Of a stretch of 64,000 nucleotides of DNA, positions 10,300-52,093 are shown piece after piece; position 1 is the stretch's first letter; the number at the start of each line of letters is the position of its first letter. Made by a program: the position numbers and the translations under genes. The notes beneath the pieces are model-generated. The model searched no databases, had not been told where the DNA came from, and was given only the letters and a program-made list of their open reading frames with translations. Source of the stretch: Thermodesulfovibrio thiophilus DSM 17215 (lineage in GTDB: Bacteria; Nitrospirota; Thermodesulfovibrionia; Thermodesulfovibrionales; Thermodesulfovibrionaceae); NCBI RefSeq assembly GCF_000423865.1, contig NZ_AUIU01000017.1, positions 1-64,000 of the forward strand, in the 5' to 3' direction.

Positions 10300-10352
10300 A
10301 TATTATTATTAGAGAATTCCATAAGGCATTAAAAATCTGATGGAGGGGTAAA

Positions 10353-10976
10353 ATGGACAATGAACAAGTTGAATTTGCAAAAACACTGTATGGCACACTT
10401 GCACAATCAGTTAGAGAACTTGAAAAAAATTTTCTCACGTTAATCGTGCAGCTTATAGCATCTCTGGGAGTTTATGGAGCAGGGCTTGTATATTATGTTG
10501 AACATGTAAAGGTTAATTCATGTTACTCAGTATTGATATTAATAGCTGCTACAATAGTGGCGATTTTTATCCTGATAATCCTCCGGCTTTCATGCAATAT
10601 ATTTGCTTACACAAGCAGGTCCAATCAAATAGTTATGGCAAAAATTGAAAATAAGGTTGGAATTTGTGGTAATATTGTTCCCACAAAATGGTGTCAGGCT
10701 ATAAATATAGATGACCCTCCAGAAATATATAAATTTTTTAAGTTAATTTCTTCTATTGCAATACTGTTGATAATAGGTATTGATTTATTGATAATAATTA
10801 TTGATTTTTTGATAATAGGTATTGATTTAAAAATATTTAATGATTTAATAAAAACACCAAATATCATTTTCATCATTTTCATAATGTTCATAATTTTTAT
10901 ATTTATATTAACTTGCGTATTTGAAAAATTTGCGTGGAACTCTTACAAAGACAAATTAAGAAAACTAAAATCGTGA
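10353..10976 (+). CDS. Hypothetical membrane protein with four helices
   Basis: The 207-residue product starts at an ATG behind TGGAGGGG. It has two hydrophobic helices near residues 27-50 and 58-82, a soluble loop, and two long Ile-rich helices near 130-150 and 165-190, then a basic tail. The Ile-rich segment is coded by short repeated stretches (TTGATAATAGGTATTGATTT twice). The family is unknown. It is the first gene after an operator of the element-wide type, so it probably belongs to the element's regulon. Confidence 0.65.
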   Translation: MDNEQVEFAKTLYGTLAQSVRELEKNFLTLIVQLIASLGVYGAGLVYYVEHVKVNSCYSVLILIAATIVAIFILIILRLSCNIFAYTSRSNQIVMAKIENKVGICGNIVPTKWCQAINIDDPPEIYKFFKLISSIAILLIIGIDLLIIIIDFLIIGIDLKIFNDLIKTPNIIFIIFIMFIIFIFILTCVFEKFAWNSYKDKLRKLKS

Positions 10977-17720: not shown

Positions 17721-17836
17721 TATTTCCCCTTATTGACCTTTTTTTATATAAAGAGTAATATTTATAATGATAACCTCTGGTTACCAGATGGTTAAGGTAA
17801 CCAGAACAATATAAAAGGAGGTAAATAAAATGGATA
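17721..17836 (+). repeat. 116-bp promoter/leader repeat, copy 1
   Basis: The segment matches 21741-21856 at all but two positions (17730 and 17744 differ). It holds TTGACC (17733-17738) and TAATAT (17756-17761) 17 bases apart, a GGTTACC/GGTAACC pair (17779-17785 and 17796-17802), AAAGGAGG and the codons ATG GAT. The two copies bracket the restriction module exactly, so the module sits in a duplicated expression cassette. Confidence 0.9.
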
Positions 17837-21740: not shown

Positions 21741-21856
21741 TATTTTCCCTTATTGACCTTTTTATATATAAAGAGTAATATTTATAATGATAACCTCTGG
21801 TTACCAGATGGTTAAGGTAACCAGAACAATATAAAAGGAGGTAAATAAAATGGATA
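21741..21856 (+). repeat. 116-bp promoter/leader repeat, copy 2
   Basis: This is the second copy of the cassette at 17721-17836, with the same promoter, the same paired operator (21799-21805 and 21816-21822) and the same ribosome site. Here the ATG GAT continues into a 76-codon gene, which may be the leader's original gene. Confidence 0.9.
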
Positions 21857-41216: not shown

Positions 41217-41293
41217 GGTAACCATGATATCCTGGTTACCTTAGTGACTTAGGTTACCTACTGCACTTTGGTAACCAACCGCACTCTGGTGAC
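41217..41293. repeat. Phased GGTTACC array upstream of the ParM gene
   Basis: GGTAACC or GGTTACC boxes begin at 41217, 41234, 41252 and 41270, and a degenerate GGTGACA at 41288, giving 17-18 bp spacing. Spacing is not a whole number of helical turns but is constant, as in iterons or parC sites. The box nearest the gene is followed by CACCTGCTAGTGTAAGA, a promoter-like segment shared with the sRNA promoter at 42770-42795. Confidence 0.8.
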
Positions 41294-41850: not shown

Positions 41851-42615
41851 TTAAAACAGACTTAAACTGCCTTCCTCTTCTTCAACCTTTGTTGATAACT
41901 CGCTGCTGTACCATGAGGCAAGCAGCTGCTCTGCTGAGTAAACTCCGTTTTCACGGTACCAGTCCTGCTTTGACAGATAATACTTCTGCACCGATCTCTC
42001 AAATAAACGGTACATTTCAGGCCACCTGTTTTTGTGAGTCTCAATCATGCCCGGTCTGCACACAAATGGACATATAACACATCCAATCCTGCTGAATCCC
42101 TCATCATAAAGCGATGGATACTCAAGCCCTCTATGCTCTATGTACTCCCACACTTCTGCCTCGTTGAAGTTGAAAATGGGATAGTAGTCTGTGGTGCAGG
42201 ATTCGGCATTTTTGTTTACCATGCTTCTTCTGGCTCTCCTGTAAGATTCCTCAGCTCTCACCCCAAGAATCACGCACTTTGACAGTTTTGTATGAATTCG
42301 GTGCTTGAGCTTTGAACAACACCACCTCCGCACTTTTGTAGGCGGACCTATGCGTTCTACCCATTTAAAAAAGTTTCTGCCGGGCCTGAGCCACTTAACA
42401 TGAGGATAGTGTTTAAGAATAAATCTGGTTACCTCTGGAGGATCTATTGAGGTGTAGTTGTAGTAAGCCACGTACTTAACTCCTGCCTGTTTTACCAGAT
42501 CAAGCGTTACTATGCTGTCCTTACCGCCTGAGAATTTAACAGAATAACCCTCTTCAGGCTCATGCTCCCTGATGAAAGAAATTGCTTCATTTATTTTTTC
42601 TCTTAGAAAAAGCAT
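41851..42615 (-). CDS. PAPS-reductase/ATP-pyrophosphatase family protein
   Basis: The 254-residue product has an N-type ATP-PPase loop SGGKDS (29-34), a following LGVRAEESYRRARRS (family Arg-Glu motif) and a C-terminal Cys cluster GCVICPFVC. This resembles the phosphoadenosine phosphosulfate reductase group including DndC-like sulfur-activating enzymes, which are common on phages and conjugative elements. The actual substrate is unknown; sulfur transfer to nucleic acid or cysteine-based sulfur metabolism are possible. The start codon nearly touches a TATATA. Confidence 0.78.
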   Translation of the reverse strand: MLFLREKINEAISFIREHEPEEGYSVKFSGGKDSIVTLDLVKQAGVKYVAYYNYTSIDPPEVTRFILKHYPHVKWLRPGRNFFKWVERIGPPTKVRRWCCSKLKHRIHTKLSKCVILGVRAEESYRRARRSMVNKNAESCTTDYYPIFNFNEAEVWEYIEHRGLEYPSLYDEGFSRIGCVICPFVCRPGMIETHKNRWPEMYRLFERSVQKYYLSKQDWYRENGVYSAEQLLASWYSSELSTKVEEEEGSLSLF

Positions 42616-42616
42616 C

Positions 42617-42641
42617 TATATATAACAGGCGTCTGGTAACC
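42617..42641 (-). promoter_or_regulatory. GGTTACC promoter abutting the PAPS-reductase-like gene
   Basis: On the minus strand GGTTACC (42641-42635), 12 bases, TATATA (42622-42617), one base, then ATG (42615). No ribosome site is visible, so the message may be leaderless. Confidence 0.55.
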
Positions 42642-42643
42642 AT

Positions 42644-42763
42644 AAAAAAAGCCAACGCCAGGGAGGGGCAAGCTTCCGGCGTTGGCCCTAAGAACCTCAC
42701 CGCTGCAGGGTGCTGGGCTTCCCGCGTCCGTGCGGAAGCTGCAACAAGCGAGGTTTTCTAATT
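42644..42763 (-). ncRNA. Candidate structured small RNA with own promoter and terminator
   Basis: The minus-strand interval between the sRNA promoter (42770-42795) and an intrinsic terminator has no credible frame. Predicted structure: outer stem AACCTC/GAGGTT (42755-42750 with 42698-42693), inner stem TGCAG/CTGCA, and a hairpin GCTTCC/GGAAGC with a GC-rich loop. Then the terminator stem GCCAACGCC/GGCGTTGGC (42686-42651) and seven Ts. It is GC-rich in an AT-rich neighbourhood. I recognise no known RNA family. Confidence 0.6.
42651..42686 (-). terminator. Intrinsic terminator of the candidate sRNA
   Basis: A 9-bp perfect stem, GCCAACGCC with GGCGTTGGC, is followed on the minus strand by TTTTTTT (42650-42644). 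Confidence 0.88.
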
Positions 42764-42769
42764 TCACCT

Positions 42770-42795
42770 CTTACACTAGCAGGTGTGTGGTAACC
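42770..42795 (-). promoter_or_regulatory. GGTTACC promoter of the candidate sRNA
   Basis: GGTTACC (42795-42789), 13 bases, TGTAAG (42775-42770) on the minus strand. The sequence CACCTGCTAGTGTAAGA is identical to that downstream of the last GGTTACC box before the ParM gene. Confidence 0.65.
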
Positions 42796-42850
42796 AAATT
42801 TTTCAGGGAGTGGAGAGAATAATGGGGGGGTAATTGTTTTCATATAAAAA

Positions 42851-42892
42851 GCTAACGCCTGATATGCTGCATATTTTTTCACTGGCGTTAGC
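42851..42892 (-). terminator. Intrinsic terminator after the HU gene
   Basis: GCTAACGCC (42851-42859) pairs with GGCGTTAGC (42884-42892), with a nested ATATGC/GCATAT; five Ts follow on the minus strand. It separates HU transcription from the sRNA. Confidence 0.85.
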
Positions 42893-42917
42893 TTTTACAC
42901 ACGTTGCAGTCTGAAAG

Positions 42918-43184
42918 TTAAAGAGATCTCAGCTCTAAAGACGGCACGAACTTGAGCGCCTTCTTTGGCGGAACTTTAACAGGCTGCCCTGTTTTTGGAT
43001 TCCTGGCAACCCTTGCATTTCTCATGACTACCCTGAAAGTGCCAAATCGCGGAATTCTCAATTCCTCTCCATTTCTGGCAAGATCAGAAACTATGGCTAT
43101 CGCTGAATTAACAGCTCTCTCCGCATCTTTCCGGCTGATGCCGCTTTTCTTTGAAACCTCTAGTATAAATTCTGTCTTGGTCAA
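42918..43184 (-). CDS. HU/IHF-family DNA-bending protein
   Basis: The 88-residue product has the normal family length: helical N-terminus (TKTEFILEVSKKSGISRKDAERAVN), then the beta arm with RIPRFGTFRVVMRNARVARNPKTGQPV and its intercalating Pro. HU or IHF proteins on conjugative elements help relaxosome and replication complexes. It starts 6 bp after the topoisomerase gene stops, so the two are co-transcribed. Confidence 0.95.
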   Translation of the reverse strand: MTKTEFILEVSKKSGISRKDAERAVNSAIAIVSDLARNGEELRIPRFGTFRVVMRNARVARNPKTGQPVKVPPKKALKFVPSLELRSL

Positions 43185-45599: not shown

Positions 45600-45683
45600 G
45601 CTGACAGCATTGCTGACAGCATTACTGATTGCATACCTGACAGCATTGCTGATTGCATTGCTGAGTGTATTACTGGGAGTATT
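45600..45683 (+). repeat. Seven 12-bp repeats, iteron-like or gene relic
   Basis: The unit is RCTGANNGCATT (GCTGACAGCATT twice, then diverged copies). The same units, in the same order at both ends, occur inside the gene at 48698-49864 (49157-49288). Both arrays are preceded by TGAT, so this is either a functional iteron set or a duplicated, decayed piece of that gene. Confidence 0.75.
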
Positions 45684-45742
45684 ACTATCAGAAAAGTTTA
45701 TTTTATTTTTTATTTATCTCTCAGCTCTGTTTTAGAACTTTT

Positions 45743-45952
45743 CAATGTCCAGTTTGTGGAATTGTAACGCCAAGAGATGTTAATTCGGTTTTAAACTTTT
45801 TGAAAATCTACCAGTATGCCGTGCGGCACGGTCTGAGAGCAATGACAACTCTCAGTATTGCCAGAATGACACTAAATCCAGTTTCTGGCAAAAACCGAAG
45901 GGCTTTATATAAGCCTGTCATCCTGAACTACCTGAATGCTCGGTGCCTTTGA
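45743..45952 (+). pseudogene. Possible 3' remnant of an IS200/IS605 tnpB
   Basis: The frame reads CPVCGIVTPRDVNSVLNF, resembling the zinc-ribbon end and the RD.N.A.N catalytic tail of TnpB. No start or upstream domain is present. A hairpin CTCGGTGCCTTTGACGCCGAG follows at about 45938-45960, as at the ends of such elements. Homology is short, so the call is tentative. Confidence 0.35.
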
Positions 45953-45965
45953 CGCCGAGAGGATG

Positions 45966-46481
45966 TCACGGGATAAGTTTGAGTTCTTTAAGCCTTATTC
46001 TCATGGCTTCATGTGAAACCATGAATATCTCAGCAAGTTCCTTAACATCTGTGCCGTATGCATTGACATACTTTCTAACCCAGTGCTTTGGCATCAGCAG
46101 TTCACTTGCAAAAGCATCTGCAAGCCGTTCAATTTTTTTCTCAACATCCTTGCTAGGACTGATGTTTGCAGTAGACGTTAAAACTTTTGCAATCCTGTGG
46201 TGCCTTAAGGCAATGTGGGCAAGCTCATGGGCTATTGTAAAGTTTCTTCTGGCTTCACAAATAAAAACATTAACAAGAATTAAAAAACTCCCTGACTTTA
46301 CAGGGACAACAGTGCCGTGCACTTCTTCAGGCAGTTCATCGGACAGGACAATTTCAGCATTCAGATGCCTGGCCACCTGTATAAGATCAACCGGTGGCTC
46401 ATTAATTCCGAGATCTTTAAGCAGTTTTCTCGCAACAGTTTTAACACTTTCTGCATCAGGAAGTTTTACTGTCCCTGCCAC
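45966..46481 (-). CDS. ImmA/IrrE-family metallopeptidase
   Basis: The 171-residue product carries the zinc site in FTIAHELAHIALRHH and the downstream helices RLADAFASELLMPKHWV. ImmA-type proteases cut the XRE repressor next door to release an element from repression after DNA damage or quorum cues, as in ICEBs1. It starts at a GTG inside the end of the XRE gene (26-bp overlap), so the two are coupled. Confidence 0.88.
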   Translation of the reverse strand: MAGTVKLPDAESVKTVARKLLKDLGINEPPVDLIQVARHLNAEIVLSDELPEEVHGTVVPVKSGSFLILVNVFICEARRNFTIAHELAHIALRHHRIAKVLTSTANISPSKDVEKKIERLADAFASELLMPKHWVRKYVNAYGTDVKELAEIFMVSHEAMRIRLKELKLIP

Positions 46482-47142
46482 TGCTGCCCTTCATATTAGA
46501 GGCTAAAACAGCGTTTAATATGGCCTCTATCGCTTTTATGGTTTTATCCATGCTTTCAGGAGGAATCTGCTTAAGAGACCTAAAAAGCTGCATTAAGAGA
46601 GTCTTATTATCCAGCAGTTCTCTTAACTCATCCGGAATATATTGAGCTTTAACAAGGTAATCGGTGACGTCCTTGTTTAAAATTTTTGCGATTTTTATAA
46701 CATCTGCCCTGCTTAACGCTGCCTGTCCTACAAACACCTGACGAATCATATCCCGTGAAATCCCATGTTTTTCAAGAAGTACAATATCATTATCCTTTAA
46801 ATCCTGCCTCAGCTGCCTTATAAACTCAGATGGCATTGAAATCGGGAAATGAGAGTCCTCTTGTTGTTTGAGTTTCAGCTTATTTCTTATTTCCTTTGGA
46901 GCTTTGATCTGAGCAAGCAGAAATAAAAGCTGGGTTCTCAGCTCCTCTTCATCCTTCTTGTCTCTGGCCAGAACCTCTGCAATCTTTTTAATAGCCTCTT
47001 CAGAGGGAACCCTGATTCCCTTTTCGATATAAGAAATGTGGACGTAGTTCATGCCTACCTTATCACAAAGTTCTTGAAGCATCCAGCCTTTTTCTTCTCT
47101 CCTCTGCCTTATCAGCTTTCCAAGTTTTTCCTCTGGCGTCAC
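46456..47142 (-). CDS. XRE-family regulator, ImmR-like
   Basis: The 228-residue product has an N-terminal HTH (LGKLIRQRREEKGWMLQELCDKVGMNYVHISYIEKG) and a second HTH-like segment near 125-160 (HGISRDMIRQVFVGQAALSRADVIKIAK). It is coupled to an ImmA-like protease and faces a divergent operon of small regulators across two dyads. Its GTG start lies 3 bases from a GGTTACC site that sits between ribosome site and start. By analogy it keeps the element quiescent and is destroyed on induction. Confidence 0.85.
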   Translation of the reverse strand: MTPEEKLGKLIRQRREEKGWMLQELCDKVGMNYVHISYIEKGIRVPSEEAIKKIAEVLARDKKDEEELRTQLLFLLAQIKAPKEIRNKLKLKQQEDSHFPISMPSEFIRQLRQDLKDNDIVLLEKHGISRDMIRQVFVGQAALSRADVIKIAKILNKDVTDYLVKAQYIPDELRELLDNKTLLMQLFRSLKQIPPESMDKTIKAIEAILNAVLASNMKGSSGRDSKTS

Positions 47143-47840: not shown

Positions 47841-47862
47841 CAAACCTCAGCAGGAGGGGCAT

Positions 47863-48510
47863 ATGCAGCTAATTTTAGACGAAACAATAACTGAAGAGCA
47901 GTGTTCAGAAATTCAGGACATGATCAAAACAGACTGCAAAGTCCAGAAATTTCTCAGGCAGTCAAGATTCTATATCTCAGGGCTTGAATACAAAGACCTG
48001 GAGCATGAAGCATTCTGCACAGCGATGGAGGTCTTACATGAGTGCAGAGATCTTTTTTGCTGTTCTGAATGTAACAACATACGTAGTTGTGAAATTTTTA
48101 AAACAAATTTCAAAACTAGATTAGTAAGAACAATAAACAGGTTAAAGGACATTCCCCGCAGATACGGGATGATCAGCTACTCTGAGGCATCAGATGGAGA
48201 AAACGATGAGTTTGCCACCTACACAAGGAAAGACTACGATATCAATGAACTATCACCTGATACTCCAGTTGAAATTTTGATTCACGAAGAAGAAAAAGAA
48301 CAAGAGGAAAAAGGACTCGAGATAAAAAAACAGCTCACAGCTGGCATACTTGCAGTGATGCCCAAAAAAGAGAGGACAATCTGGGAACTATACCTTGCCG
48401 GAGTTCATCCTTCTGAGATAGCAGATAGACTTGGATACAAGAAGCCGCAGGGAGTTTATGTAATCCTCAGAAGAAGTGTAAATAAAGTAAAAATCAAAAA
48501 ATACCAGTGA
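47863..48510 (+). CDS. Sigma-factor-like regulator
   Basis: The product has 215 residues. The N-terminal half (SGLEYKDLEHEAFCTAMEVL, then FKTRLVRTINRLKDIPRRYG) resembles sigma region 2 helices. The last 60 residues form a region-4-type HTH: LAVMPKKERTIWELYLAGVHPSEIADRLGYKKPQGVYVILRRSV. Four cysteines lie between (CRDLFCCSECNN). It may direct RNA polymerase to the element's own promoters, perhaps those with GGTTACC at the -35 place. That link is inference. The ribosome site is AGGAGG. Confidence 0.68.
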   Translation: MQLILDETITEEQCSEIQDMIKTDCKVQKFLRQSRFYISGLEYKDLEHEAFCTAMEVLHECRDLFCCSECNNIRSCEIFKTNFKTRLVRTINRLKDIPRRYGMISYSEASDGENDEFATYTRKDYDINELSPDTPVEILIHEEEKEQEEKGLEIKKQLTAGILAVMPKKERTIWELYLAGVHPSEIADRLGYKKPQGVYVILRRSVNKVKIKKYQ

Positions 48511-50953: not shown

Positions 50954-52093
50954 GTGAGAAAAAAGATTACAAGAATCAAAGGAATTTCAGAAAGAAGGAG
51001 ACTTCCCAGATTAGGTAAAATCCGTCTTGGAGTCAAAGTGATAAATCCAAAAACCGGCAGAGAATACCCCCGCGAAGTGGATTATTTTGTAGTCCCTCCA
51101 GAGGTAGCAAAAATCTACGGGGAAAAACCCAAAGAGTTAGACGTGCTTTTTCCGGTAAATGACATTGATGTGGTATTTCCTCAGGCATATAAGTGGTATG
51201 GAAGTTCAAAAGGACTTAAATGCTATGGAGACGGGGAGATTGCTTACAGGTGGAATGAGAAAAAAGAGCAGTTTGAACAGAGGCCATGTTCCTGTGAACT
51301 TAAAGATAGAGAGTGTATGGCAAGAGCTCACCTGCTTGTTATCCTGCCAAAGGTAAGTATGGGAGGTGTCTATCAGATAGATATCGGGTCATATAACTCC
51401 ATTGTTGACATCAACAGCGGACTTGAATACATTCAGTCTCTAATTGGCAGATTTGCAATGGTTATGCTGAAGCTCAAGAGAGTGCCAAGGGAAGTGGCTT
51501 ACAACGGAGTTAAAAAAATTCACTATCCTCTCCAGATTACCCTTGAAAATGTTGATGTTCAGACCATCATGCAACTGAGGCAGGATTTAAGCAGAGCTCT
51601 GCTTGAATCAAACAAAACAGCTCTTCCGCCCATTGAAGATGTAAACCCCAGGTTTGACGAAGGAGCAGTAGTAGTGGTTGACGAGACAGAGGAAGAAGAA
51701 ATGCTTTATGTTGAACCGGTAGAACCTGCTGTTGATGAACCAGAAATTGAAACGCATGACGAAACTGAAGAGGCTATAGCACCACCTGTCACGACTTCTC
51801 AGTCCGTCAGTAAACATCCTTCAGGCAGACATAAACAAGAAGATACGGCAAAGATGGCAACCGAGCAGCAGCAGGCTGCCATCAGAAAGCTTGCAGAGTT
51901 CTATGAAATTGATTTTTCCATAATTGACAGGATCATAGCAAGTGGACTGACAGAGTATCAGGCGGGGAAAGTGATTTCAGACATAAGCAAGAAAGGAAAA
52001 GATGCAGAATGCATAAAATCGATCATTAATACAAAAAAGGAAAGAACAATCACAACACCGCCTGAGCTGGAAACCGTCATGGAACCATTCTAA
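50954..52093 (+). CDS. Gp3-like recombination directionality factor
   Basis: The product has 379 residues and a GTG start behind AAGGAGG. The N-terminal ~190 residues show the Gp3-like pattern: RRRLPRLGKIRLGVKVINPKTGREYPREVDYFVVPPEVAKIYGEKPKELDVLFP, written here with its marks PRLG-IRLG, YP..DYF-VP and YG-KP..L. It goes on with GLKCYGDGE and CSCELKDRECMARAHLLVILP. In phage phiC31, Gp3 switches a serine integrase to excision. The C-terminus has an acidic region and a helical domain. The matching integrase is not in the window. Confidence 0.78.
   Translation: MRKKITRIKGISERRRLPRLGKIRLGVKVINPKTGREYPREVDYFVVPPEVAKIYGEKPKELDVLFPVNDIDVVFPQAYKWYGSSKGLKCYGDGEIAYRWNEKKEQFEQRPCSCELKDRECMARAHLLVILPKVSMGGVYQIDIGSYNSIVDINSGLEYIQSLIGRFAMVMLKLKRVPREVAYNGVKKIHYPLQITLENVDVQTIMQLRQDLSRALLESNKTALPPIEDVNPRFDEGAVVVVDETEEEEMLYVEPVEPAVDEPEIETHDETEEAIAPPVTTSQSVSKHPSGRHKQEDTAKMATEQQQAAIRKLAEFYEIDFSIIDRIIASGLTEYQAGKVISDISKKGKDAECIKSIINTKKERTITTPPELETVMEPF

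Follow-up and report, generated by a model that had tools for sequence, protein, structure and literature searches.

The window analysed here is the whole 64000-nucleotide stretch, bases 1–64000 of an 87.5-kb contig (37% GC) in a 1.87-Mb genome that is 99.8% complete, and it carries an F-type (MPF-F) conjugative element. The transfer genes of this element encode TraG, TraH, TrbC, TraU, TraN, TraC, TraF, TraL, TraE, TraK, TrbI/TraB and TraT, alongside a TraD-like coupling protein, an HD-domain relaxase-like protein, SSB, topoisomerase III, HU and a ParM-like actin. Between the HU gene and a gene for a PAPS-reductase-like protein lies the interval considered here, which a preliminary description had put forward as an undescribed small RNA gene of the element, and the features of which are listed in Table 1. 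The PAPS-reductase-like gene is BrxP/SspD/DndC-related by PADLOC, and its mRNA (42641–42615, minus strand) seems to be leaderless. Elsewhere in the window, positions 45665–45952 of the plus strand may code for the degraded C terminus of a TnpB/Cas12f1-like protein (with a Pfam E of 0.001, it falls below the cut-off).

Table 1. Features of the small RNA gene, its neighbours and its two leading predicted targets (window coordinates).
Feature	Position	Strand	Remarks
Promoter GGTTACC-N7-TG-C-TAGTGT	42773..42795	(-)	Extended -10 type, element class
Predicted small RNA transcript, ~120 nt	42644..42767	(-)	Predicted from its promoter and terminator
GC-rich interrupted hairpin, three nested stems, ACGGAC hexaloop	42693..42755 (about)	(-)	Fold, GC, shuffles
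Intrinsic terminator: 9–10 bp stem, 18-nt loop, seven Ts	42644..42687	(-)	
C-rich accessible terminator-loop seed UUGCCCCUCC(C)	42661..42671	(-)	Complementary to Shine-Dalgarno sequences
HU gene terminator	about 42847..42896	(-)	Separates the RNA gene from transcription further upstream
GGTTACC promoter of the PAPS-reductase-like gene	42616..42641	(-)	Near-leaderless mRNA
HU gene	42918–43184		Upstream neighbour of the RNA gene
PAPS-reductase-like gene	41851–42615		Downstream neighbour of the RNA gene
Leading predicted target: SD and start of the sigma-70-like gene 47863–48510 (GGAGGGGCATATG)	47853..47865	(+)	Nine perfect pairs with the loop
Other top predicted target: SD of the membrane-protein-like ORF 10353–10976 (GGAGGGGTAA)	10342..10355	(+)	

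The promoter reads in full GGTTACC (42795–42789, minus strand), ACACACC, TG, C and TAGTGT, and the transcript is predicted to start 6–8 nt downstream of the -10 hexamer. At the other end, the near-perfect intrinsic terminator with its seven Ts is present as first described, and is composed of GCCAACGCC-18 nt-GGCGTTGGC-TTTTTTT. The three nested stems that had been noticed between them (AACCTCGC/GCGGTGAGGTT, TTGCAG/CTGCAG and GCTTCC/GGGAAGC) also stand, and together form one long interrupted hairpin (-30.3 kcal/mol, z -2.3, equalled by four of 200 shuffles); with a z-score of -1.9 for the whole transcript, the fold by itself exceeds chance only modestly. The 70 nt from position 42666 are the GC maximum of the window (0.70, vs 0.61 for the next-best 70-mer), and high GC in an AT-rich genome is a usual mark of structured RNA.

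The interval is an isolated transcription unit, as had been claimed, because a strong HU terminator lies upstream of it (AGCTAACGCC...GGCGTTAGCTTTTT; z -4.2, equalled by none of 200 shuffles) and the promoter of the PAPS-reductase-like gene lies behind the terminator of the RNA. Since that gene has its own promoter past the RNA terminator, the RNA is not its leader or attenuator. No tRNA or tmRNA was found. What is seen at the sequence level is therefore what a trans-acting small RNA should have, i.e. a promoter of its own, an intrinsic terminator and no coding content, and this anatomy looks like that of a real, element-regulated orphan small RNA gene that is presumably transcribed. That it is a small RNA gene under the control of the element is likely.

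The case for element control rests on the promoter. The window contains 30 copies of GGTTACC, vs 3.4 expected and at most nine reached in shuffles, and a longer form, GGTTACCAG, has 16 copies on this contig and eight in the remaining genome. When the GGTTACC sites are aligned, a TG-extended -10 is found about 7–8 nt downstream, and in two related elements (G037 and G069), which belong to the same order but to a different family, GGGGTTACC-N7-GCATTA precedes parM, the ssb/HU operon and further genes. Judged by these sequence patterns the promoter class is real, and hence the place of the RNA in the element regulon is well supported. Across the genome, the RNA promoter has just one other match, the parM promoter (41224–41197, minus strand), with 93% identity over 28 nt; the preliminary description had called the two spacers identical, which is nearly correct: the stretch CACCTGCTAGTGTAAGA is the same in both, whereas the spacer bases just 5′ of it differ (ACA vs ATG). 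By analogy with ImmR/ImmA-controlled elements, the XRE protein encoded at 46456–47142, the gene for which has a GGTTACC 4 bp ahead of its own start, is a likely GGTTACC binder.

Several observations on the surroundings of this motif may be recorded here. The XRE repressor (HTH_3) and the IrrE/ImmA-type M78 peptidase that comes after it form an ImmR/ImmA-like pair (45966–47142, minus strand). Upstream of the ParM-like gene are four GGTTACC/GGTAACC sites with 17–18 bp spacing (41217–41276) and directly after it is an 89-aa ORF; together, sites and ORF may constitute the centromere/operator of a partition system of the actin type that uses the global motif of the element. Identical paired GGTTACC operators next to a TATAAT-like sequence (17779–17802 and 21799–21822) flank type I restriction-modification genes, one just before and the other after, and these genes may be under repression by the element regulator. 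Downstream of the GGGGTTACC promoter that precedes the ssb/HU operon in the two related elements (L038:17310–17200, minus strand; L044:2045–2160, plus strand) lies a conserved leader, which contains a tiny MRAH* frame as well as a GGGCGGC/GCCGCCC hairpin and has no Rfam match.

Relatives of the RNA were sought widely. No Rfam family matched it at the gathering threshold, and a permissive threshold returned only noise; blastn against 60 relatives, plasmids and phages returned only the window itself; and a single-sequence covariance model run over 176 genomes of the order gave no homologue beyond the window, its sole other match (G030, 20.9 bits) lying inside long ORFs and being taken as chance. 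The exact promoter pattern was absent from viral contigs, and searches of these with the PAPS-reductase, ParM, HU and sigma-like proteins revealed no relative with the RNA or the GGTTACC motif. The nearest two related elements have the promoter class and nothing resembling the RNA; they have a conserved ssb/HU leader in common, which shows no meaningful alignment to the RNA. With topoisomerase III as a marker, no closer element was found in 396 genomes of the phylum, the genome collection or plasmids. Thus the RNA is an orphan, found in one genome only, and this lack of homologues is the main weakness of the candidate. The proposal of an undescribed small RNA of the element is borne out as far as promoter class, terminator and the absence of an Rfam family or relative go, while the function that it would serve has the standing of an unproven candidate.

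The preliminary description had named copy-number control among the possible functions. In the form of a cis-antisense RNA this reading is disfavoured: the strand opposite the RNA carries no gene, and a search for cis-antisense or long trans complementarity to the element gave nothing convincing. Action in trans, on mRNAs of the element and possibly also of the host, fits better. We propose the following. The GGTTACC class, if active as we infer, would drive the RNA gene so that the RNA is made alongside parM, ssb, tra and related operons; the transcript would have a stable hairpin at its 5′ end and would display UUGCCCCUCC in the 18-nt loop of its terminator; and the exposed loop would pair with the purine-rich Shine-Dalgarno (SD) sequences of selected element mRNAs and block ribosome binding. 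The main targets would be the sigma-70-like regulator and the ORF at 10353–10976, with weaker ones at 50954, at the traB-like gene (62583) and at the gene for the TraD-like coupling protein (56176), and the transfer programme would thereby come under negative feedback. Hfq was not found in the host genome, so the pairing would be chaperone-independent or would go via another protein.

The evidence for this pairing comes from the terminator loop, GGAAGCUUGCCCCUCCCU, which is open (0.5 kcal/mol frees the seed) and within which UGCCCCUCC is perfectly complementary to GGAGGGGCA in the SD region of the ORF 47863–48510. This element-encoded ORF on the plus strand is sigma-70-like (TIGR02937, E 2.8e-7, below the curated cut-off). 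In a scan of 54 element start regions, with energies corrected for accessibility, two targets reached -12 kcal/mol or lower and five reached -9.5 kcal/mol or lower, all via the same loop and all at SD positions, with predicted sites that start at -12 to -4 relative to the start codons. Five targets at the latter threshold were obtained in none of 300 whole-RNA and none of 200 loop-only shuffles, and the energy of the second-best target was matched in one of 300 and none of 200, respectively; the best target taken alone is less striking (3%, 10/300 shuffles), as is the longest perfect run (6%, 31/500). The loop is thus C-rich, accessible and more complementary to target SDs than chance would give, at energy thresholds that were set after the data had been seen. 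Sites at SD positions are also more frequent among element genes (four of 47) than among chromosomal genes (four of 355; Fisher p 0.008, post hoc), in part because element SDs are stronger (0.49 vs 0.34). C-rich loops in general tend to match SDs; an equally good site, a 10-nt loop match, lies at the SD of a host ABC-transporter-like mRNA (L105:12492), and in a full cofold ranking the sigma-like mRNA comes ninth of 64 rather than first. Repression of element mRNAs by the terminator loop through anti-SD pairing is, from these predictions, the best mechanism that we can offer, and we advance it tentatively. The fuller proposal, that a single GGTTACC-controlled small RNA with an anti-SD loop represses the sigma-like factor together with several tra genes in an element-wide, Hfq-free feedback, is doubtful; both the pairing in the cell and the feedback role are our inference.

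Other explanations have to be weighed against anti-SD repression. The RNA might have a direct part in transfer or replication, or might act on mRNAs of the host, through some other contact. The sgm-sRNA of SGI1, which is required for mobilisation (PMC9299015), is a precedent, and the match to the transporter mRNA would suit a host role; no specific interaction was identified, however, and the anatomy of sgm-sRNA, a processed mRNA 3′ end beside oriT, differs from that seen here. We regard such a role as unlikely, and hold a similar view of the possibility that the locus is a non-functional by-product, in which a duplicated parM-type promoter came to lie before a terminator that insulates HU from the PAPS-reductase-like gene and the hairpin is a folded leftover. 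The near-copy of the parM promoter, the modest fold z-scores and the failure to find conservation anywhere searched would all be explained in this way, but HU already has a strong terminator of its own, neutral filler would hardly have the 70% GC of the body when the contig has 37%, and the SD complementarity lies above that of the shuffles.

Binding of the host protein CsrA is the main specific rival. Here the RNA would be a protein-binding decoy in which the ACGGAC hexaloop, perhaps with the GGA at the base of the terminator loop, binds CsrA and either titrates it or stabilises the RNA. ANGGA in a 6-nt apical loop is a classical CsrA site; such a loop arose in just three of 1000 dinucleotide shuffles, and the host genome contains csrA. 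Plasmid entry into the CsrA pathway has a precedent in RsmQ (PMC9928087). Yet the RNA has two GGA motifs only, vs many in dedicated Csr sponges, the apical stem is short with an ambiguous register, and the motif was sought after the fact, so that a CsrA decoy seems improbable to us.

Two further readings are very improbable. A short protein gene would have to use a leaderless GTG frame of 54 codons (42767–42603) that is open, next to a gene that looks leaderless too, but the frame crosses the terminator into the next promoter, has no credible relative and scores -0.04 per codon (coding mean 0.29; 1.1% of true coding chunks score so low), and we reject it on codon usage, in reasonable agreement with the earlier statement that no frame is plausible. 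A DNA-level element (an oriT, single-strand origin or ssDNA promoter with hairpins acting as DNA) would suit GC-rich inverted repeats beside the HU and topoisomerase III genes of a conjugative element, but has no need of a double-strand element-class promoter exactly 5′ and a T-run terminator 3′.

To our knowledge, control of conjugation by small RNAs has been described in few elements. If the anti-SD reading is true, a small RNA under the element's own regulon promoter, with a sigma-like factor among its two best predicted targets, would provide a lineage that has been little studied with a negative-feedback circuit that is both compact and testable. At present, going by the sequence, it is a well-formed orphan candidate, and a good one.

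Comparison with known RNAs places this candidate among several types. With the CsrB/RsmZ-type CsrA sponges and McaS it has one ANGGA hexaloop in common and a host that encodes CsrA, whereas in place of several GGA loop motifs there are two GGA motifs in total (the hexaloop and one at the loop base). FinP and FinP-like copy-number RNAs (PMC8136791) are likewise short, two-hairpin RNAs with an intrinsic terminator, on F-type transfer elements; FinP, however, is cis-antisense to the traJ leader, while there is no gene opposite 42644–42795, and the FinP model (RF00107) gave only noise, below its gathering score and on the opposite strand (15.6 bits, cut-off 45). The predicted mechanism parallels that of LhrC and the RsaE-type UCCC-motif small RNAs of low-GC Gram-positives, which also stand alone and in which a CU-rich terminator loop (CUCCC) pairs with SDs, a mode of blocking that is documented for LhrC (PMC4132741); no sequence relation was seen, and the RNA here is single copy, belongs to a conjugative element in another phylum and has a predicted pairing. 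RteR of Bacteroides CTnDOT, named in PMC9299015, is comparable in being a small RNA that an element encodes and that represses transfer genes. The sgm-sRNA of Salmonella Genomic Island 1 (PMC9299015) is likewise a mobile-element non-coding RNA tied to transfer, but it is the processed 3′ end of a 650–700-nt mRNA, whereas the RNA proposed here would be a ~120-nt primary transcript with a promoter and terminator of its own.
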